Under the pieces are notes generated by a model. The model worked only from the letters and a program-made list of their open reading frames with translations. It was not told where the DNA came from and searched no databases. Of a stretch of 64,000 nt of DNA, positions 15,724-26,157 are shown piece by piece. How positions within the stretch are numbered: position 1 is the first letter of the stretch; every line of letters starts with the position of its first letter. The DNA comes from Dehalococcoidia bacterium (GTDB lineage: Bacteria; Chloroflexota; Dehalococcoidia; GIF9; AB-539-J10). The stretch is taken from positions 1 to 64,000 of the forward strand of contig SKVJ01000007.1 of the NCBI GenBank assembly GCA_007129495.1. Direction: 5' to 3'. The translations under genes and the position numbers were made by a program.

Positions 15724-16911
15724 GTGTCCCGCTGTATCTTCCATGTGGACCTCGACGCCTTCTTCGTGTCGGTTGAGCGACTTCACAACCCTTCACTGAA
15801 AGACAAGCCGGTGATAGTCGGCGGCATTCCCGGGTCTCGTGGTGTTGTTTCAGCTGCCTCATATGAAGCTCGGCGTTACGGCGTGCACTCGGCAATGCCA
15901 CTCGTACAGGCGCAGCGGCTCTGTCCGCAGGCTGTGTTCCTTCCCGTACACTTCTCTCGGTATATCGATGCTTCGAGACACTTCATGACACTGCTTGAAA
16001 GCATGTCCTCCCATATCGAACCACGAGGCTTGGATGAAGCATTTCTTGATGTCACGAACGTTGTTGAAGACTCAGAACAGGCACTCACGTACGCGACGAC
16101 CCTCAGGTGCCGCGTCCGGGAAGAGTTGGGGCTTACCACTTCGATAGGAGTCGCTACCTGCAAGATTGTCGCCAAGGTGGCCTCGGACCATAACAAGCCC
16201 GATGGTCTCGTGCTTGTACCTCCCGGAGACGAGGCCGGTTTTCTCGCACCGCTGGACGTGAGGAAACTGCCAGGTGTGGGCAAGAAGACTGCCGACTGCC
16301 TGGAAGACATGGGAATCCGCCGTATCGGACAACTCGCTGCCATCCCTCATAAGGTCCTATACCAGAAACTCGGTAGATACGGCCTCCTGCTTCTGGCCCA
16401 CGCGCGAGGCATCGACAACAGTCGCGTTGAACCTCGGGGTGAACCCAAGACGATTAGTCGCGAGACGACATTTCAGACGGATACTCGCGACCCGGCATTC
16501 CTCCAGTCTGCCCTGTGCGCAATGTGTGAGGAGGTTGTTCACGACATGCGTGCACAGAGAAAGCGTACCGGAACCGTTACCCTCAAGATTCGTTTCGAAG
16601 ACTTTCAGACTATCACCAGGCAGTGCTCGCTGAAAGAGCATACGAGCGAAGCCTCGGAGCTTCTTGCTGCGACACGAGACCTGTTGAAAGCGGTCATTGA
16701 GAACGAGACAAGGCGCATTCGCCTGATCGGTGTCAAGACATCCCGACTGTCCGGTCCGGAGCGGCAACTCGACATGTTTTCTCAAGAGGCGCTAAGATTA
16801 CGTCGTCTGGAACACGCCATCGCCCAGGTGCACAGAGAATATGGTCCCGACTCCATACGAACGCTGGGAGAGCACAAGAGAAACCGCGATTCGTTCCGGC
16901 GAACCACTTGA
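15724..16911 (+). CDS. dinB: DNA polymerase IV (Y-family)
   Basis: 395 residues. Y-family palm motifs: HVDLDAFFVSVE near residues 6-17 and GLDEAFLDVT near 102-111 hold the catalytic Asp and Glu; thumb helix-hairpin-helix LPGVGKKTADCLEDMG near 182; little-finger domain from about 230. It bypasses lesions and extends mismatched ends. The C-terminus stops soon after the little finger, with no typical beta-clamp peptide visible beyond QLDMF near 345, which may serve as one. Leaderless GTG start. The TGA stop lies inside the -35 box of the ilv leader promoter. Confidence 0.93.
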   Translation: MSRCIFHVDLDAFFVSVERLHNPSLKDKPVIVGGIPGSRGVVSAASYEARRYGVHSAMPLVQAQRLCPQAVFLPVHFSRYIDASRHFMTLLESMSSHIEPRGLDEAFLDVTNVVEDSEQALTYATTLRCRVREELGLTTSIGVATCKIVAKVASDHNKPDGLVLVPPGDEAGFLAPLDVRKLPGVGKKTADCLEDMGIRRIGQLAAIPHKVLYQKLGRYGLLLLAHARGIDNSRVEPRGEPKTISRETTFQTDTRDPAFLQSALCAMCEEVVHDMRAQRKRTGTVTLKIRFEDFQTITRQCSLKEHTSEASELLAATRDLLKAVIENETRRIRLIGVKTSRLSGPERQLDMFSQEALRLRRLEHAIAQVHREYGPDSIRTLGEHKRNRDSFRRTT

Positions 16912-16937
16912 CAAGTGTAATCACAAGCCTCTAATAT
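16908..16937 (+). promoter_or_regulatory. promoter of the ilvBNC-leuACDB operon
   Basis: TTGACA (16908-16913), 18-nt spacer, TAATAT (16932-16937). The -35 contains the dinB TGA stop. Transcription would begin about 10 nt before the leader-peptide ATG. Confidence 0.65.
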
Positions 16938-16952
16938 TCTGACTGATATCAT

Positions 16953-17048
16953 ATGAACACAACGGCACGAATAGTCTCCCCCGGACTCATCCTTAGCATC
17001 GTCATTATTGTGCGCACCATGCGTGCGTCTGGGAGGCTGACCGGCTAG
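16953..17048 (+). CDS. ilv leader peptide
   Basis: A 31-codon ORF, MNTTARIVSP-GLILSIVIIV-RTMRASGRLTG. Eight of the nine residues at 12-20 are Leu, Ile or Val (LIL-S-IVIIV), the three end-products of the operon behind it. This is the codon cluster expected of a ribosome-stalling attenuator. The last codons overlap a hairpin and the antiterminator strand. It ends 109 nt before ilvB. The second leader near 24.95 kb ends in the same IVRTMxAxGR motif. No strong Shine-Dalgarno sequence is visible before the ATG. Confidence 0.8.
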   Translation: MNTTARIVSPGLILSIVIIVRTMRASGRLTG

Positions 17049-17112
17049 TTCATACCGTTAGATCACGATAAAGCAGAGGGGCTCTCCCAGGCGGAGAGCC
17101 CCTCTCTTTTTT
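17010..17112 (+). promoter_or_regulatory. transcription attenuator of the ilvB operon
   Basis: Three alternative RNA structures can be drawn. (1) Early hairpin CGCAC/GTGCG (17013-17017 with 17023-17027, loop CATGC) inside the leader ORF. (2) Antiterminator: 17026-17035 pairs with 17084-17093 over 10 bp including one G-U, core CTGGGAG with CTCCCAG. (3) Terminator 17075-17112. Structures 2 and 3 use the same bases and exclude each other. A ribosome held at the Ile/Val/Leu codons would cover the 5' arm of hairpin 1 and free the antiterminator strand, so scarcity of these amino acids should turn the operon on. Confidence 0.75.
17075..17112 (+). terminator. attenuator terminator before ilvB
   Basis: Perfect 13-bp stem AGAGGGGCTCTCC (17075-17087) with GGAGAGCCCCTCT (17093-17105), loop CAGGC, followed by a C and six T. 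It ends 44 nt before the ilvB start. Confidence 0.9.
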
Positions 17113-17156: not shown

Positions 17157-18851
17157 ATGAAAAGGACAGGCGCACAGATCCTCTGCGAATCCCTGCTGAG
17201 GGAAGGGGTTGAAGTGATCTTCGGCATTTCGGGTGGCACTGTCATTCCGCTGTATAATGCCTTCTCGGAGTACCCCCAGATTCGAAGGATTCTTGTCCGC
17301 CACGAGCAGGCTGCCGCCCATGCCGCCGCCGGCTATGCCCGGGCAATGCATAAGGCGGGAGTTTGTGTCGCAACCTCCGGACCCGGAGCTACGAACCTGG
17401 TTACCGGAATCGCTGACGCCTATATGGATTCCACTCCTCTCGTGGTAATAACGGGACAGGTTTCGACCGGACTAATAGGGAAGGACGCATTTCAAGAGTG
17501 CGATATCACCGGAATCACCTTGCCTATCATCAAACACAACTACCTGGTGCACGACGTGAACGACCTTGCGCGAATCGTCAAGGAGGCGTTCCACATCGCG
17601 CAGAGCGGCAGGCCAGGGCCGGTGCTTATCGATATTCCGAAGAATGTCCAGACGGCGATGACGGATTTCGCTTACCCGGAGACTGTCGATCTACCAGGCT
17701 ACAAACCTGTGTCGGAACCTAACCCGTCACATGTGACAAATGCAGCGGAGTTGCTCAACCAGGCTGAACGCCCGGTCATTATTGCGGGAAGGGGAGTGAT
17801 CATTTCCCAGGCTTACGAGGAACTCAGAAGTCTCGCCGAGAAGTACCAGGCACCGGTGGTTCATACGCTGCTTGGCCTCGGCTCCTTTTCTCCTCGACAT
17901 GACCTCCACTTCGGAATGCTTGGGCATCACGGTACCGTGGCTGCAAATATGGCCATCCAGGAGGCCGACCTCATTTTGGCGATAGGTACACGGTTTGGTG
18001 ACCGCGCGACCATGAGGACGCGAGACTTCGCGCGAAAGGCAGTGGTGGTACATATCGATATCGATCCAGCAGAGATCGGCAAGAACATAGTTCCCTTCGC
18101 ATCGGTTGTCGGTGATGCAAGACAGATCCTGTGCCAGCTTACTCCGCTGGTGAACAGGGTTGAGAGACCGGAGTGGCTCCTGCAGCTCCGCGAGTGGAAG
18201 TCGGAGCACCCGCTGGCGCCGGCCGCGGCACCCGGGACATTGTCCGCCCGCACTGCAATCCGCCAGGTGTGTCGCTCGGCCGATGATCGCACCACCATCG
18301 TCACGGGCGTGGGACAACATCAGATGTTCGCCGCTCAGGAGTATGCCTCGCCGAGACTGAACGGCTTCATCTCCAGCGGCGGGCTGGGAACCATGGGCTT
18401 TGAATTGCCTGCTGCGATCGGAGTTCAGATGGCCTCGCCGCAGGATGCAGTCTGGGTCGTGGCCGGGGATGGCAGTTTCCAGATGACGATGCAGGAGCTG
18501 TCCACCATTGTTCAGGAAGGACTGTCGGTGAAGATAGCTGTAATCAGCAACGGGTATCTCGGTATGGTGCGGCAGTGGCAAGACCTCTTTCAGCAGCATA
18601 ACTACGTCGATGTGGCCCTCCATGCACCCGACTTCGTGAAGCTCGCGGACGCCTACGGCATCAGCGCGGTGCGTGTTGATAACGAAGAGGATATTGGCCT
18701 CGCTCTCAGCCGTGCAACTGCCCATCCAGGCCCGTTCCTCATCGACTTCGTCGTAGACCCGGAAGAGAACGTGTACCCGATGGTCGCCCCCGGAGAGAGC
18801 CTTGACTGTATCATCGAGGTTCCGGAAAGGACACAGGCAATGGCCTCTTAG
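17157..18851 (+). CDS. ilvB: acetolactate synthase, large (catalytic) subunit
   Basis: 564 residues. It condenses two pyruvates to acetolactate or pyruvate with 2-ketobutyrate to acetohydroxybutyrate, the first shared step of Val, Leu and Ile synthesis. The thiamine-diphosphate activating Glu lies in VRHEQAAAHAAAGYAR (near residue 48), and the cofactor motif GDGSFQMT starts near 438 with the closing N near 464. FAD-binding and central domains are of normal length. ATG with AAAGGAG upstream. First gene of the seven-gene operon behind the attenuator. Confidence 0.96.
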   Translation: MKRTGAQILCESLLREGVEVIFGISGGTVIPLYNAFSEYPQIRRILVRHEQAAAHAAAGYARAMHKAGVCVATSGPGATNLVTGIADAYMDSTPLVVITGQVSTGLIGKDAFQECDITGITLPIIKHNYLVHDVNDLARIVKEAFHIAQSGRPGPVLIDIPKNVQTAMTDFAYPETVDLPGYKPVSEPNPSHVTNAAELLNQAERPVIIAGRGVIISQAYEELRSLAEKYQAPVVHTLLGLGSFSPRHDLHFGMLGHHGTVAANMAIQEADLILAIGTRFGDRATMRTRDFARKAVVVHIDIDPAEIGKNIVPFASVVGDARQILCQLTPLVNRVERPEWLLQLREWKSEHPLAPAAAPGTLSARTAIRQVCRSADDRTTIVTGVGQHQMFAAQEYASPRLNGFISSGGLGTMGFELPAAIGVQMASPQDAVWVVAGDGSFQMTMQELSTIVQEGLSVKIAVISNGYLGMVRQWQDLFQQHNYVDVALHAPDFVKLADAYGISAVRVDNEEDIGLALSRATAHPGPFLIDFVVDPEENVYPMVAPGESLDCIIEVPERTQAMAS

Positions 18852-18861
18852 GAGCACCTCC

Positions 18862-19362
18862 ATGGAAGACAGACAACACACTCTGGTATCTCTTGTTCAG
18901 GACGAACCGGGAGTCCTGACACGAATTGCCGGGCTCTTTCGCCGCCGCGGATTCAACATTGAGAGTCTCTCAGTCGGCCACTGTGAGCGCCCCGGCCTCT
19001 CGCGCATGACTATCGTGGTCAAAGGCAACGATGCCGAAGTCGAACAGGTTACAAAACAACTCGACAAACTCATCAACGTAGTCAGCGTTACGGACATTAC
19101 ACGTCTGGATACAGTGTCGAGAGAACTTGCACTTATCAAGGTCGCCGCCGGGTCCGATGACCGCAGCGAGATAATGCAGATGGTCGACATCTACCGGGCG
19201 AAGATCGTTGATGTTGCACCTGATTCGTTGACAGTCGAAGTAACCGGCGGCGAGGACAAAATAGATTCCCTTCTGACCCTGCTTCTTCCCTTTGGCATCA
19301 CAGAGATGGCGCGTACCGGACGAACTGCCCTGACCAGGGGTGCACAGTCCAGCATCAAATAA
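18862..19362 (+). CDS. ilvN: acetolactate synthase, small (regulatory) subunit
   Basis: 166 residues. An N-terminal ACT domain ([21 protein letters not shown], residues 6-26, with FNIESLSVG) binds valine for feedback inhibition, and a second ACT-like half follows (about 80-160, [18 protein letters not shown]). Together with IlvB it forms the holoenzyme. Start ATG 18862 follows GGAGCACCTCC and is 10 nt after the ilvB stop; the frame stays open into ilvB, but that extension does not match the family. Confidence 0.95.
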
Positions 19363-19385
19363 GACGGAAATTGGAGGATTTCGAG

Positions 19386-20378
19386 ATGGCCAAGGTTTAC
19401 TACGACAGCGACGCGGACCTTTCACATCTTAAAGGGACACTTATCGGCATAATCGGCTATGGCAGCCAGGGACATGCGCATGCGCAGAACCTGCGGGACA
19501 GTGGATGTGAGGTAGTGGTAGCCAGCAAGCCCGGGGGCGCAGGATGGAAGGCAGCTGAGGCTGATGGCTTCGCGGTGATGAGTGTCGCAGAGGCGACGAA
19601 GAAGTCCGATGTTCTTACTCTCCTGGCCCCGGATAACCAGCATGCCGCAATATACCAAGAGTCGATCGAACCTAATCTCACCCCGGGGAAGACACTGATG
19701 TTCGCCCATGGTTTCAACATTCATTTCTTCCAGATCGTACCTCCAAGGGACGTTGACGTCAGCATGGTTGCGCCCAAGTGTCCGGGGCACATGCTCCGTG
19801 CCATCTATCTGGAAAACGCAGGCCCTCCAGCAATCATGGCGGTACACCAGGACGTGTCGGGAAAGGCGAAGGAGGTTGCGCTGGCGTACGCCAGCGGCCT
19901 CGGATGCGCGCGTGCGGGCGTCATCGAGACAACGTTTGCCGAAGAGACGGAGACGGACCTGTTCGGTGAACAGACTGTGCTCTGCGGTGGTGTGACCGCG
20001 CTGATTAAGGCAGGATTCGACACGCTCGTGGAAGCCGGCTATCAACCGGAAATCGCCTATTTCGAGTGCCTTAACGAGTTGAAACTCATAGTCGACCTCA
20101 TTTATCAGGGCGGGTTGAAGTACATGCGCTACTCGGTGAGCGATATCGCTGAGTTTGGTGACTATACGCGCGGACCACGCATCATTAACGAGTCCGTAAG
20201 GGAAGAGATGCGCAGCGTTCTCAAGGAGATTAAGGACGGGACATACGCTCTCGAATGGGTGCTCGAGAATCAGGCGGGTCGACCCCACTTCAATGCAATG
20301 AAACGAAATGAACAGCAGGAACTCATCGAAGTTGTCGGTGAGCAACTGAGAGGAATGATGCCATGGACGAAGAAGTAG
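19386..20378 (+). CDS. ilvC: ketol-acid reductoisomerase, class I
   Basis: 330 residues, the class I (short) length. It isomerises and reduces acetolactate with NADPH and Mg2+. The N-terminal Rossmann motif [10 protein letters not shown] lies near 24-33. The metal-binding knot includes [13 protein letters not shown] near 184-196 with Asp and Glu ligands, and further helices carry [12 protein letters not shown] near 225. ATG 19386 sits 8 nt after GGAGG; a TTG five codons upstream overlaps that ribosome-binding site and is rejected. leuA starts 16 nt before its end. Confidence 0.96.
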
Positions 20379-22006
20379 ACATTACAACCGATGAAGGTGA
20401 CCGGGCCTCATCCACATCGTATGTAGATGAGGCTGGATCAGACAGAGTGATCATATTCGACACAACACTCAGAGACGGTGAGCAGGCCGCCGGCACGAGT
20501 CTCACTCCCAGGGAGAAACTGGCTATCGCCTGCCAACTCGAAAGACTTGGGGTGGACGTTATCGAAGCCGGATTCCCGATAAGTTCGCCGGGCGACTTCG
20601 AAGCGGTACAGCTCATCGCACGAGAGGTCCGTCAGCCTGTTATATGTGGCCTGGCCCATTGCAGGCCGGCCGCAATCGATGAATCCTGGAGAGCAGTGCA
20701 GGACGCAGCACACCCGCGCATCCACGTGTTCCTTTCCGCCTCAGATATCCAACTCGCACATATGCTCAAGAAGAGCCGCCAGGAGGCTCTTGCGATGGCG
20801 CGGGAGATGGTCGCAAGAGCGAAGAGCTACACACACGACATCGAGTTCTCTCCCATGGATGCAACGCGGGCTGAACCAGGCTTTCTCTATCAATTGCTGG
20901 AGGCTGTTATCGACGCTGGTGCGGTCACAGTGAACATCGCCGATACCGTTGGCTACAGCACAGTGAACGAGTTTGGCAACCTCATACGGAGCATCGTGAA
21001 AAACGTGCCAAACATACATAAGGCCTGTCTCAGTGTGCACTGCCATGACGACCTCGGGCTCGCCGTGGCGAACAGCCTGGAAGCTGTCCGATTGGGAGCG
21101 CGTCAGGTGGAGTGCACCATTAACGGTATCGGAGAACGTGCCGGAAACGCCGCTCTTGAGGAAGTGGTGATGGCCTTGCGAACCCGGTCGGACGCATTCG
21201 GACTTAAGACTCACATCAATACAACACAACTCTACAAGACAAGCAGAATGGTAAGCGACCTCACCGGCTTTCTCGTGCAGTCGAACAAAGCAATCATTGG
21301 AGCTAACGCATTCCGGCACCAGTCCGGTATCCACCAGGACGGAATGGTCAAGGAATCCACCACGTACGAGATCATGGACCCCCGGTCAGTTGGTATTCCG
21401 GCGAGCAGTCTTGTGTTGGGCAAACTCAGCGGTCGGCACGCGTTCCGCGAACGGCTGGCTGAACTGGGATTCACTCTTGGCAATGATGCCTTGAGCCACG
21501 CTTTTGAAGCGTTCAAGGATCTCGCCGACAAGAAGCGGGAAATCGCCGACCGCGACCTCATATCACTGGTGAGCGAAGAATTGCGCCAGGAGACACAGGT
21601 CTACAAATTGGACCACGTTGATGTGTCCTGCGGCGACCACAGTCTCCATTCAGCAGCAGTGCGACTCATCGGACCGGACGGTGAGACTCTGGCCGACGCA
21701 GCGCTCGGTACTGGACCGGTCGACGCTGTATACAAGGTTATCAATCGCATAATCGGTATCCCGAACACGCTGGTCGAATTCTCTATCAATGCGAACACCG
21801 AGGGCTTCGACGCCATTGGAGAGGTGCTGATTCGCATCGAGAGCGACGGAGGGCTCTATACCGGACGCGGCGCGTCCACTGACATCGTCGTAGCCAGCGC
21901 CAAGGCCTACATGAATGCACTTAACAGGCTCATTCTCTCCCGACAACATGCAGGCGTGAAGGAGTCGACGGAAGAACCCGCATATCGTGTCCACGAGGCA
22001 TCGTAA
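20363..22006 (+). CDS. leuA: 2-isopropylmalate synthase
   Basis: 547 residues. It condenses acetyl-CoA with 2-ketoisovalerate, the committed step to leucine. The HMGL-like barrel starts at about residue 30 with [16 protein letters not shown]; metal-binding HCHDDLG near 228 and the [15 protein letters not shown] helix near 256 are intact. A LeuA dimer region (about 395-530, with [15 protein letters not shown]) would carry leucine feedback binding. The first 25 residues are an acidic extension. Citramalate synthase is an alternative, but the leuCDB context favours LeuA. Overlaps ilvC by 16 nt. Confidence 0.94.
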
Positions 22007-23298
22007 TGGCAACCATCACCGAGAAGATTCTGTCCGTACATGCCGGGCGAGACAATGTCTCGCCCGGCGACTTTGCCAATGTCGCGGTGGACATGGTGCT
22101 CGCGAATGACATCACTGGCCCATTGGCTATCAGGGAGTTCCACAAGCTTGGCGTCAAGCGGGTGTTCGACCCGGCTCGAATCGTCATGGTACCGGATCAC
22201 TTCGTCCCCAACAAAGACATTGCCTCGGCGATCCAGGCACAGGAGCTTCGCGAATTCGCGAGGGAGCAGGGCGTCGTGTATTACGAGGCCGGGAGGGCCG
22301 GAATCGAACATGTGCTGCTCCCGGAGGAGGGTCTCGTGGGGCCCGGACAGGTGGTGATCGGGGCCGATTCTCACACCTGTACCTACGGCGCAATTGGCGC
22401 ATTCGCCACGGGAATGGGTTCTACCGACATTGCGGTGGCGATGGCTACCGGTGACATCTGGATGAAGGTCCCCCCTACCATCAAGTTTGTGTTTCATGGC
22501 CGACTGAACCCGTGGGTAAGCGGTAAGGATCTCATACTTCACACAATAGGCAACATCGGTATCGATGGTGCATTGTACGCAGCGATGGAATTCCACGGGG
22601 AGGCGATCGAGAGGCTGGATATCGACGGGCGATTCACCATGGCAAATATGGCCATCGAAGCCGGCGCCAAGGCCGGTATATTCCAGGTTGACGCCATCAC
22701 ACACACGTACACAACCGCACACCCACAGCGTACGGGCACTGCCCCGTACAGGACCTACGTGACCGATTCGGACGCTGACTACTCGCAAATCATTGAATAC
22801 GAGGCTTCGGACATCGAACCACTGGTCGCATTTCCGCACCTTCCGTCAAATACGCGGCCGGTGCGCCAGGCGAACAGTGTTCCAATCGACCAAGTGGTAA
22901 TCGGCAGTTGTACGAACGGGCGACTGAACGACCTGAAAGTTGCGGCGAAACTGCTGGAAGGACATGTCGTGCATCCATCAGTGAGGTGCATCATTATTCC
23001 GGGGACGCAGCAAGTGTATACGAAGGCAATCGAAGAAGGGTTCGTGCGCATCTTCCTTGATGCGGGCGCAGTAGTCAGTACTCCAACCTGTGGACCGTGC
23101 CTGGGAGGCTACATGGGGATTCTGGCACCGGAAGAACGCTGTCTCTCGACGACAAATCGTAACTTCATAGGGCGTATGGGTAGCCCACAGTCCGAGGTGT
23201 ATCTGGCGGGACCTGCCGTAGCGGCAGCTACCGCGGTTACCGGTCGAATAACACATCCCGCTGATATCTCAGGGGGTGGAGTGGAGAAATCGATATGA
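22006..23298 (+). CDS. leuC: 3-isopropylmalate dehydratase, large subunit
   Basis: 430 residues of the aconitase superfamily. With LeuD it isomerises 2- to 3-isopropylmalate. The [4Fe-4S] cysteines are in GSCTNGR near 304 and in [10 protein letters not shown] near 364-373. [21 protein letters not shown] near 121-141 is the substrate-binding core. At this length it belongs to the shorter archaeal/HacA-like LeuC branch rather than the 470-residue E. coli form. Start ATG overlaps the leuA TAA by one base; stop overlaps leuD by 4 nt. Confidence 0.95.
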
Positions 23299-23801
23299 CC
23301 ATTTTGCAAGGTAGGGCACATGTCTACGGCGCCGACGTGGACACCGATGCCATTATCCCCGCGAGGTATCTCAATGTCTCAGCGCCTGACCTTCTGGCCG
23401 AACACTGTATGGAAGATATCGATCCCGGCTTCAGAAGCCGCTCTTCGACGGGGGACATGATAGTGGCGGGCACGAATTTCGGCTGCGGTTCGTCGCGGGA
23501 ACACGCGCCTATCGCCATCAAGGCAAGCGGCATATCATGCGTTATCGCCCGTAGTTTTGCGCGAATCTTCTTCCGCAATGCGATCAACATCGGTCTCCCG
23601 TTACTGGAATGCAGCGAAGCTGTTGCCTCGTGCGAAGCCGATGATATACTGAAGGTTGACCTCGCGAGTGGACGGATAACCAACACGACAAAAGGTCTCT
23701 CTTTTTCCGCCAGGCCGTACCCGGAGTTCATGATGGGCATCATCAATTCCGGAGGTCTGATAGCCCACACCGTGCGCAGACTGGAGGGGATTAAAACATG
23801 A
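23295..23801 (+). CDS. leuD: 3-isopropylmalate dehydratase, small subunit
   Basis: 168 residues, typical of the short LeuD paired with HacA-like Leu[13 protein letters not shown] (residues 16-27) and [14 protein letters not shown] (about 58-71) form the swivelling-domain active site. It binds the LeuC iron-sulfur subunit in the cytoplasm. ATGA overlaps with both the leuC stop and the leuB start, so leuC, leuD and leuB are translationally coupled. Confidence 0.95.
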
Positions 23802-24895
23802 GCCACAGGATTGCAGTACTCCGTGGAGACGGGATTGGACCCGAGGTAACGGACCAGTCACTTAAGGCTCTGGTCACGGTCGCTGAACAATTCGGCCACG
23901 ACCTTGAGTTTGAGGAAGGTCTGGTAGGGGGAGCCGCAATCGATGCACATGGCATTCCCATGACTGAGGAGACACTGGCAATGTGCCAGAGTTCAGATGC
24001 AATCCTGTTTGGAGCTGTTGGGGGGCCGAAGTGGGACGACGCCGGAGTCGACCTGCGACCGGAGCAGGCTCTGTTTCGCCTCCGCAAGACACTCAACCTT
24101 TTTGCGAACCTGAGGCCGGTTACGTCTTATCAGATGCTCGTCGACAAAAGTCCACTGCGTCCCGAGGTCGTGCGGGGTGCGGACATCATGTTTGTAAGAG
24201 AACTCACCGGTGGACTTTACTTCGGTCAGCCTAAGAAACGGTGGGAGACTGTCGAAGGCAGACGAGCAGTTGATTCCGAGGACTACTCGGAAAACGAGAT
24301 AGCCAGGGTAGTGCGCGTGGCATGTGAGTTAGCCAGGAAACGACGCGGTAAAGTCGTATCGGTTGACAAATTCAACGCCCTCATCTCCTCGCGTCTCTGG
24401 CGTCAAGTGGCGACCGAGGTTGGTGCCGAGTATTCCGATATTGAGTTGTCCCACATGCTGGCAGATACTTTCTCAATGCAGCTTATTGCGCAGCCCACTC
24501 AATTCGACGTAGTCGTCACAACTAATATGTTCGGCGATATCTTCACCGATGAGGCCGCCGTGATCGCAGGATCAATGGGACTGCTTCCCTCCGCCAGTCT
24601 GTCAGGTCTGCCAACAGGGAAGACGCTCGGGATGTATGAACCAATCCATGGTTCCGCACCGGACATCGCAGGACAAGGTGTCGCCAATCCCATCGCAGCA
24701 ATCCTTAGTGCGGCTATGCTGCTCAGATACTCACTTGGCATGGAGACCGAAGCCCTGGCCCTCGAGTCTGCTGTTATGTCCGTGCTCGAGGAGGGATATC
24801 GGACGGCGGATATCTACTCAGAGGGGACGAAACGGACCACGACTGAGGAGATGGGAGACCTCATTGTGTCGAAAGTTCAAGCGAAAAAGGGTTGA
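23798..24895 (+). CDS. leuB: 3-isopropylmalate dehydrogenase
   Basis: 365 residues of the beta-decarboxylating dehydrogenase family. It oxidises 3-isopropylmalate with NAD+. GDGIGPEV near residues 9-16; [11 protein letters not shown] near 71-81; [10 protein letters not shown] near 133-142; metal-binding Asp in [24 protein letters not shown] near 243-266; NAD-binding [15 protein letters not shown] near 284-298. Last gene of the operon; its TGA stop is contained in the -35 box of the ilvE leader promoter. ilvD, also needed for the pathway, is not in the window. Confidence 0.96.
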
Positions 24896-24920
24896 CACCA
24901 TAGGGTGGTGTTCTTACAAT
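24892..24920 (+). promoter_or_regulatory. promoter of the ilvE leader
   Basis: Near-consensus TTGACA (24892-24897), 17-nt spacer, TACAAT (24915-24920). The leuB TGA stop lies inside the -35. Transcription would begin about 22 nt before the leader ATG at 24950. Confidence 0.8.
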
Positions 24921-24949
24921 GTACCGTCTCTGTTTGGCAGGTTGAGTTA

Positions 24950-25048
24950 ATGAAGGCTCCAGCCGCTGTAATGATTGTGGTCGTAGCAGTTATGCTTATC
25001 GTGCGCACCATGAGTGCGCACGGGAGGATTCTTCGACCGTCAGATTAG
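24950..25048 (+). CDS. ilvE leader peptide
   Basis: A 32-codon ORF, MKAPAA-VMIVVVAVMLIV-RTMSAHGRILRPSD. Nine of the twelve residues at 7-18 are Val, Ile or Leu, mostly Val. Its tail repeats the IVRTMxAxGR motif of the ilvB leader. Placed between a strong promoter and a terminator hairpin ahead of ilvE, it has all the parts of a translation-controlled attenuator. Confidence 0.8.
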   Translation: MKAPAAVMIVVVAVMLIVRTMSAHGRILRPSD

Positions 25049-25113
25049 GCAGAGACAGCAACTCAGAACAGGAAACGAAGAAGAAGCCTCCCAAGGGAGG
25101 CTTCTTCCTATTT
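25001..25113 (+). promoter_or_regulatory. transcription attenuator of ilvE
   Basis: Hairpin 1: perfect 8-bp GTGCGCAC/GTGCGCAC (25001-25008 with 25014-25021, loop CATGA) within the leader ORF. Antiterminator: GGGAGG (25022-25027) pairs with CCTCCC (25087-25092), and TTCTTCG (25029-25035) pairs with CGAAGAA (25076-25082). Terminator: 25080-25107. The antiterminator and terminator share CCTCCC. The order of parts and the key sequences are the same as in the ilvB attenuator. Confidence 0.75.
25080..25113 (+). terminator. attenuator terminator before ilvE
   Basis: GAAGAAGCCTCCC (25080-25092) pairs with GGGAGGCTTCTTC (25095-25107); with a CAAG tetraloop this is 12 bp. The following tract is CTATTT, a weak run of T compared with the ilvB terminator, so termination may be less complete. 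Confidence 0.75.
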
Positions 25114-25239
25114 CGCTCATGTGTTCGGATAAGGATTGTCAGGAAGGCCATGCAGGATTTGTGGGGACTCTACCCGCCAATTCGCCGGGTTTGTAGACCA
25201 GGGATTGACTGATTGAGTACACAGAGGAGGTACGAAGCA

Positions 25240-26157
25240 TTGGAACCGTATGCCTTTTTCCAGGGAGAATACATGCCCCTCAAGGATGCCAAGATCGGCA
25301 TACTTACACAGGCGCTACACTACGGCACTGCGTGTTTTGGTGGAATCCGCGCGAATTGGGATGGAGAGAGCGAGCAGTTCTGCATCTTCAGGTTGAAGGA
25401 TCACTATCGGCGCCAGCTGGATGCCTGCAAGATCCTGAATATCTGTCTGCCGTATGACGAGCACGATATGGCTGAATTCACGGTAGAAACCCTGCGGCGA
25501 ACTGGATTCAGGGAGAACCTTTATTGCCGCCCACTCGCATACAAGTCCTCGGAAGCAATCGGCGTCAAACTGCACGACCTTGAAGACGATTTCTTCGTGA
25601 TTGTGACTCCTCTTCCTCCTTATCTCGGCACGGGAGGTATCAGGTGCTGCACCTCGTCGTGGCGACGCGTGAGCGACAGTCAGATTTCACCCCGCGGAAA
25701 GATTACAGGCATCTATGTGAATAGCGCACTCGCCAAGACCGATGCCAACCGGTCCGGATTCGATGAGGCGATCATGCTGAACGAGAAGGGCCACGTCTCC
25801 GAGGGCACCGGAGAGAACATATTCGTGGTCATCAAAGGCCAACTGATCACACCACCGCCATACGATAGTATCCTGCTTGGAATCACAAGAGATACGGTGA
25901 TGCAGCTTGCCAAGAACGAACTTGGCCTGACGACGGTTGAGAGAAGCATCGATCGAAGCGAACTCTACGTAGCGGACGAAGCATTCTTCACCGGCACCGC
26001 AACTAACGTGGCTGCTATTGTCTCGGTCGACCAGCGGCCAATCGGCACCGGAGACACTGGCCCTATCACTGCGAGGTTGCAGGACCTGTTCTCTCAGGTC
26101 GCGCTTGGAAGAAATCCGGATTACTCCGAATGGTACACGATAGTCAAGTACGACTAG
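25240..26157 (+). CDS. ilvE: branched-chain-amino-acid aminotransferase
   Basis: 305 residues of fold-type IV PLP transaminases. It makes Val, Leu and Ile from their 2-keto acids using glutamate. LHYGTACFGGIRA near residues 27-39 is the family signature. The PLP lysine should be the Lys in GKITGIYVNSALAKTDANRSGFDEAIMLN (about 156-185), and GEGTGEN-type SEGTGENIFVV follows near 190. TTG 25240 is preferred because AGAGGAGG ends 9 nt before it; an in-frame TTG nine codons upstream overlaps the ribosome-binding site. Its own attenuated promoter separates it from leuB. Confidence 0.94.
   Translation: MEPYAFFQGEYMPLKDAKIGILTQALHYGTACFGGIRANWDGESEQFCIFRLKDHYRRQLDACKILNICLPYDEHDMAEFTVETLRRTGFRENLYCRPLAYKSSEAIGVKLHDLEDDFFVIVTPLPPYLGTGGIRCCTSSWRRVSDSQISPRGKITGIYVNSALAKTDANRSGFDEAIMLNEKGHVSEGTGENIFVVIKGQLITPPPYDSILLGITRDTVMQLAKNELGLTTVERSIDRSELYVADEAFFTGTATNVAAIVSVDQRPIGTGDTGPITARLQDLFSQVALGRNPDYSEWYTIVKYD

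Follow-up and report, generated by a model that had tools for sequence, protein, structure and literature searches.

A probable leader-peptide attenuator of ilvBNC-leuACDB in a Dehalococcoidia bacterium and a putative class-wide family of similar attenuators

The closest described counterparts of the leader reported here are the attenuators of the enterobacterial trp, ilvGMEDA, ilvBN and leu operons, in which a leader ORF with cognate codons and mutually exclusive protector, antiterminator and terminator structures precede a biosynthetic operon. The Dehalococcoidia leaders have the same layout; however, their antiterminator pairs with the terminator loop, and the same RNA core is used for several amino acids. 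An upstream ORF rich in codons for branched-chain amino acids (BCAA) is also combined with a terminator before ilvBNC in Actinobacteria (ilvB leaders, PMC1262725; Corynebacterium ilvB-II motif, PMC10272879), where peptide and RNA differ from those of the Dehalococcoidia ilvB leader. T-box leaders (RF00230) control the same pathway by tRNA charging, but the T-box binds tRNA directly, whereas the Dehalococcoidia ilvB leader would sense charging via the translating ribosome. In 2010, the authors of PMC2965389 knew of no leader-peptide system beyond the Proteobacteria and Actinobacteria before their own case in the Firmicutes. We found no literature report of leader-peptide attenuation in Chloroflexota or Dehalococcoides, for which the survey of Lopatovskaya et al. 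(2010) may hold predictions; nor did we find a motif of this kind described in PMC11109978, a paper that includes Dehalococcoides.

Here, we describe an RNA leader in the window (the whole stretch of 64,000 nucleotides that was analyzed) that is very probably a ribosome-mediated Leu/Ile/Val transcription attenuator of ilvBNC-leuACDB, one of a family of leader-peptide attenuators that extends across the class and is probably homologous. A first-pass annotation of the sequence had placed this leader ahead of ilvB in a Chloroflexota-type host, and both statements hold: the downstream genes are ilvBNC-leuACDB by NCBIfam matches, and the closest relatives that bear a name are Dehalococcoidia MAGs. 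The promoter, the 31-codon ORF with eight of nine consecutive Leu/Ile/Val codons, the internal hairpin and the 13-bp terminator with six T were all confirmed in the sequence (Table 1). The 10-bp antiterminator proposed earlier (17026-17035 with 17084-17093) exists and extends to 11 pairs, but it does not take most of the terminator arm: it uses the entire terminator loop and only the uppermost 4-5 of the 13 bases of the 5' arm. The leader RNA folds 4.9 standard deviations below dinucleotide shuffles. A consensus scan found no promoter-like site between the leader stop codon and ilvB. Downstream of the leader the gene order is ilvB, ilvN, ilvC, leuA, leuC, leuD, leuB, ilvE; since ilvE, 345 nt past leuB, has its own promoter and attenuator, the unit described by the annotation ends at leuB.

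Table 1. Positions of the features of the ilvB and ilvE leaders in the window
Feature	Position	Strand	Details	Basis
Promoter of the ilvB transcript	16908..16937	+	TTGACA 16908-16913, 18-nt spacer, TAATAT 16932-16937	consensus scan
ilvB leader peptide ORF	16953..17048	+	MNTTARIVSPGLILSIVIIVRTMRASGRLTG; 31 codons plus stop	translation
Regulatory codons 12-20	16986..17012	+	LILSIVIIV; 8/9 Leu/Ile/Val	
ilvB protector hairpin (strands 1:2)	17012..17028	+	17012-17017/17023-17028	
ilvB antiterminator, 5' strand (strand 2)	17026..17036	+	within the ORF	covaries with 17083-17093
ilvB antiterminator, 3' strand	17083..17093	+	terminator loop and top of terminator 5' arm	
ilvB intrinsic terminator	17075..17112	+	13 bp, 17075-17087/17093-17105; 5-nt loop	
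ilvB terminator, 3' tail	17107-17112	+	T run (six T), preceded by C	
Regulated operon ilvB-ilvN-ilvC-leuA-leuC-leuD-leuB	17157..24895	+	genes abut or overlap	NCBIfam matches
Second promoter (ilvE)	24892..24920	+	TTGACA, 17 nt, TACAAT; overlaps leuB end	read from sequence; layout shared by relatives
ilvE leader peptide	24950..25048	+	MKAPAAVMIVVVAVMLIVRTMSAHGRILRPSD, then stop	read from sequence
ilvE protector hairpin	25001..25021	+	GTGCGCAC/GTGCGCAC, 8-bp	
ilvE antiterminator, 5' strand	25022..25034	+	partner 25080-25092	0/300 shuffles as good
ilvE terminator	25080..25107	+	12 bp, weak U tract (CTATTT)	
ilvE, branched-chain aminotransferase	25240..26157	+	TTG start after GAGGAGG	TIGR01122

The predicted 5' UTR of the leader ORF is about 8-10 nt long (16944-16953) and has no clear Shine-Dalgarno sequence. 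Given this near-absent 5' UTR and the missing Shine-Dalgarno sequence, translation of the leader is probably leaderless. A title cited in PMC10272879 likewise reports that the C. glutamicum leader is made without a ribosome binding site. Evidence of coding from codon-position bias is weak, as is the third-position excess between leaders.

No curated leader-peptide or leader-RNA model from Pfam, NCBIfam or Rfam matched the ilvB leader, and Rfam 15 holds no family for the Dehalococcoidia attenuator. In the window, a riboswitch, a T-box or another known Rfam RNA was ruled out by the lack of any Rfam match; likewise there was no Rfam match bearing on the Corynebacterium ilvB-II and ilvB-OMG motifs, which Rfam 15 may not include. 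The T-box covariance model (RF00230), which had no match in the window, finds T-boxes elsewhere in the same genome, before trpE and trpB. T-boxes also precede ilvB at five other Chloroflexota loci, mostly from Dehalococcoidia (L044, L046, L051, L054 and L057), which indicates that sensing systems have been exchanged at ilvB. The earlier suggestion of a possibly new attenuator class was half right: the mechanism at ilvB appears to be classical enterobacterial attenuation, while the RNA belongs to a class-wide family without an Rfam model, a finding beyond the reach of an annotation made from the sequence alone.

The ilvB leader was found in all seven genomes of the genus, partly incomplete MAGs, in one copy each and always ahead of ilvB, with the conservation of ORF and terminator that the annotation had named as a check. 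Promoter, protector hairpin, antiterminator and terminator are common to the seven leaders, and both ACTTGACA and the -10 box are kept in each of them. The leader ORF, 30-32 codons long, is open and alignable throughout, its length shifts only by multiples of three, and the columns of regulatory codons stay Leu/Ile/Val with few exceptions. Covariation was assessed on alignment A3 (103 columns, seven genomes), where the 11 antiterminator pairs are 98.7% paired, against 35-63% if the pairing is slid by one to three columns. The compensatory changes that had been sought in relatives are present: both partners vary in three antiterminator pairs (5 double-changed cells versus 1.3 in shuffles) and in four pairs of the terminator, whereas the protector is nearly invariant in the genus and shows compensatory changes at the class level. 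The variable antiterminator bases pair with the terminator-loop bases 17089-17091, which are unpaired in the terminator. The codon at 17028-17030 encodes Ser, Pro, Leu or Thr depending on the genome while the loop pairing is retained; what is conserved is thus the pairing rather than the peptide. Other genera of the family and order contributed 23 ilvB loci (L008-L030), none of which showed a comparable ilvB leader or an Rfam match. In one genus member, a second ilvB copy carries its own BCAA leader attenuator MNSLVLVGVLVLSLVLVAVRTERATGGLFS (L158, G003:C7:7449-7549, minus strand).

The pairings and the mutual exclusivity of protector, antiterminator and terminator are evident from the aligned sequences, and folding calculations indicate that the position of the ribosome decides between antiterminator and terminator. 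In these calculations the nascent RNA ended at 17094, and pairing was restricted to RNA downstream of the ribosome. As long as the A site lay at codons 1-21, the antiterminator probability was 0.80-0.91; it was 0.64 at codon 22, 0.25 at codon 23 and 0 from codon 24 to the stop. All regulatory codons thus fall within the "on" zone, whereas the stop codon belongs to the "off" zone. For the untranslated leader the probability was 0.05, because the upstream leader sequence holds the antiterminator arm. When pairing across the ribosome was allowed, the values for codons 18-20 dropped to 0.01-0.03 and the antiterminator was no longer favored, so the result depends on the assumption that no such pairing occurs. 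In the full-length RNA at equilibrium the terminator wins in every state (0.998), and control must therefore be kinetic, which is the general assumption for attenuators of such kind. Taken as a leader-peptide attenuator, as originally proposed, the locus is well supported, in that antiterminator and terminator covary and ribosome-placement folding reproduces the expected switch.

We propose the following sequence of events. Transcription would start about 8-10 nt before the leader ATG, and a ribosome would load. When too little tRNA is charged with Leu, Ile or Val, stalling would occur on codons 12-20 and prevent the protector from forming, leaving 17026-17036 free to capture 17083-17093 as it emerges; the terminator could then not nucleate, and the operon would be transcribed. 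When amino acids are plentiful, the ribosome would reach the stop codon and cover 17026-17036, the terminator would form, and transcription would end near 17112. If the leader is not translated, sequestration of the antiterminator arm by the upstream sequence would make termination the default.

R1, a covariance model of the ilvB leaders, also matched positions 25001-25114 between leuB and ilvE in the same genome (E = 7.2e-5), where a complete second attenuator (24892-25107), absent from the first-pass annotation, has its own promoter, a leader rich in Val, Ile and Leu, a protector, an antiterminator and a terminator. Counterparts of this leader occur in 7/7 genus genomes. Its antiterminator forms 12 of 13 possible pairs and spans the complete 5' arm of the terminator. 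A second, broader model, R2, matches the site with E = 4.6e-20, having been trained on it. In the ribosome walk the antiterminator probability stays near 0.75 as far as codon 20 and is zero from codon 24 onward. The ilvE leader would work in the same way as the ilvB leader, as a separate unit.

Similar sites are found across the class. Matches to R1 occur in 70 of 393 Dehalococcoidia genomes, many of them genuine. R2, built from 29 sites (alignment A5) with both window sites in the training set, has matches at E<=0.001 in 75/393 class genomes (53 of the 220 good ones), and across 400 genomes of the phylum all matches stronger than 1e-5 fall within Dehalococcoidia. Five R2 matches outside the class were examined and look like chance terminators, except an ilvB site in genome G444. 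A profile of the leader peptides gave a convincing match across the phylum only in the window's own genome, the short peptides being too weak for such a search. About 20 weak R1 matches were rejected as ordinary terminators (L181, L182, L186-L189, L192, L193, L195, L197, L199-L202, L207, L209, L211, L213, L215, L217 and L218). An antiterminator duplex at p<=0.01 was present at 26/43 sites versus 0/22 of the ordinary terminators usable as controls, drawn from the same R1 matches; at three of the 43 sites the failure came from a wrong choice of hairpin by the script. For a later set of sites the figure was 38/56, which is not an independent test, since both R1 and R2 reward GGGAGG/CCTCCC. The antiterminator takes at least three bases of the terminator loop at 46 of 56 sites. 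The leader codons give a further criterion: among the 13 leader-ORF codons before the protector, at least three encode Phe, Tyr or Trp at 53 of 59 further sites and at least five do at 39, compared with 1/21 and 0/21 control terminators and with 8% and 0.2% of shuffles.

Most class matches have Tyr/Phe leaders and precede genes for DAHP synthase, an operon of acyl-CoA synthetase and a Liv-type transporter, or aminotransferases. Among the targets are genes for DAHP synthase (PRK08673), a HisC-like aminotransferase, CoA-transferase III, acyl-CoA synthetase of two kinds, an octopine-dehydrogenase-like protein and, assigned by eye only, a symporter-like protein. The genome from which the window comes has four such sites. 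Besides ilvB and ilvE, they precede DAHP synthase, whose leader attenuator is of the Phe/Tyr/Trp type MKTFRAYFGYWFYFYHTLTPGSGLVT (L177, G000:C74:44260-44356, minus strand), and a paralogue of ilvE, whose leader is rich in Met MKTPVTVMPIAGAMAMRPLYCHGRVLPYSK (L264, G000:C58:1312-1421, minus strand). Met-rich leaders (MM, MMM) are found at ilvE paralogues in the genus (L264, L168, L265 and L153:9699-9807); their codons suggest a methionine-linked aminotransferase. At L281 (G299:C9:54603-54713), a leader with eight consecutive Tyr codons (MLIYTTAHYYYYYYYYAFTGRIGTLGG; YYYYYYYY) precedes a HisC-family protein, which may be an aromatic aminotransferase. In genome G153, one leader MLNVKSFKNYYYFTKTSLLGR precedes DAHP synthase (G153:C1:441893-441993, minus strand). 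A second, a Phe/Tyr leader MRYTGYAYFYFMFTGRTLCALSGAVDK (G153:C1:868719-868838, minus strand), stands before an operon that encodes an acyl-CoA synthetase, permeases of the LivH/LivM type, two binding proteins, two ATPases and a PaaK-like phenylacetate-CoA ligase (L325, G153:C1:858500-869300). We infer that Phe/Tyr shortage would induce the uptake and activation of aryl acids.

Several other explanations of the ilvB element were considered. With only 4-5 of the 13 arm bases taken and 8 bp of the lower stem left free, 17026-17036 and the terminator loop could in principle form a pseudoknot with the lower stem that stabilizes the terminator, a ribosome at the stop codon then relieving termination. 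The ilvE antiterminator, however, covers the entire 5' arm (12/12) and cannot coexist with the terminator, and a pseudoknot promoting termination would turn a biosynthetic operon off in starvation, which makes this very unlikely. The strong conservation of the RNA core would also suit a riboswitch or a protein-bound leader with an incidental ORF, but apart from the negative Rfam result, the codons track the downstream gene (I/L/V, F/Y/W or M) while the core stays constant, which a small-molecule aptamer leaves unexplained; we regard this explanation as highly improbable. Hardly any weight can be given to a constitutive terminator that yields a short 5' RNA only, without regulation: stable as the terminator is, such an element would not retain a covarying antiterminator or matched codon runs. 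Ribosome-mediated attenuation is the best of these explanations.

The origin of the class-wide family is a separate matter. In the scenario that we consider fairly probable, one homologous loop-capturing RNA core became widespread in Dehalococcoidia, and codon swaps changed its specificity repeatedly, giving a modular family that putatively includes cultivated Dehalococcoides. DAHP synthase and aminotransferases would have received Tyr/Phe/Trp codons, the apparent aryl-acid uptake and activation operon Phe/Tyr, ilvB and ilvE Leu/Ile/Val, and the ilvE paralogue Met. Independent inventions converging on GGGAGG/CCTCCC are possible though doubtful, and would challenge the family but not the attenuators themselves. 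Repeated origin of attenuators is conceivable (discussed in PMC2965389), and leader peptides with GGGAGG-type terminators also occur before ilvB in a second Chloroflexota class: L328 (G444) and L329 (G436) have Leu/Ile/Val-rich leader ORFs (..VIILPILVILSVLVLIAGAGGWRS and ..VLLISIISVLLPVLEVPGGSTGG) and terminators before ilvB. Against convergence, the protector GCGCAC/GTGCGC is shared, at most sites its reading frame is the same too, giving Arg-Thr or Arg-Ile, and one covariance model recovers sites at E down to about 1e-18 in the class and essentially none outside it. Homology is thus likely, short of proof in view of the G444 and G436 leaders.

For amino-acid control in Dehalococcoidia, the only reports that we found are of T-boxes. 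If the family is real, its leader codons would be a readable label of operon purpose, as for the HisC-like aminotransferase with eight Tyr codons, the branched-chain aminotransferase paralogue with Met, and the acyl-CoA synthetase/Liv transporter/PaaK-like operon with Phe/Tyr. The family would also be a clean natural series for the change of attenuator specificity at a constant RNA fold. Leader-peptide attenuation would then be one of the main ways in which this large and mostly uncultivated class controls its amino acids.
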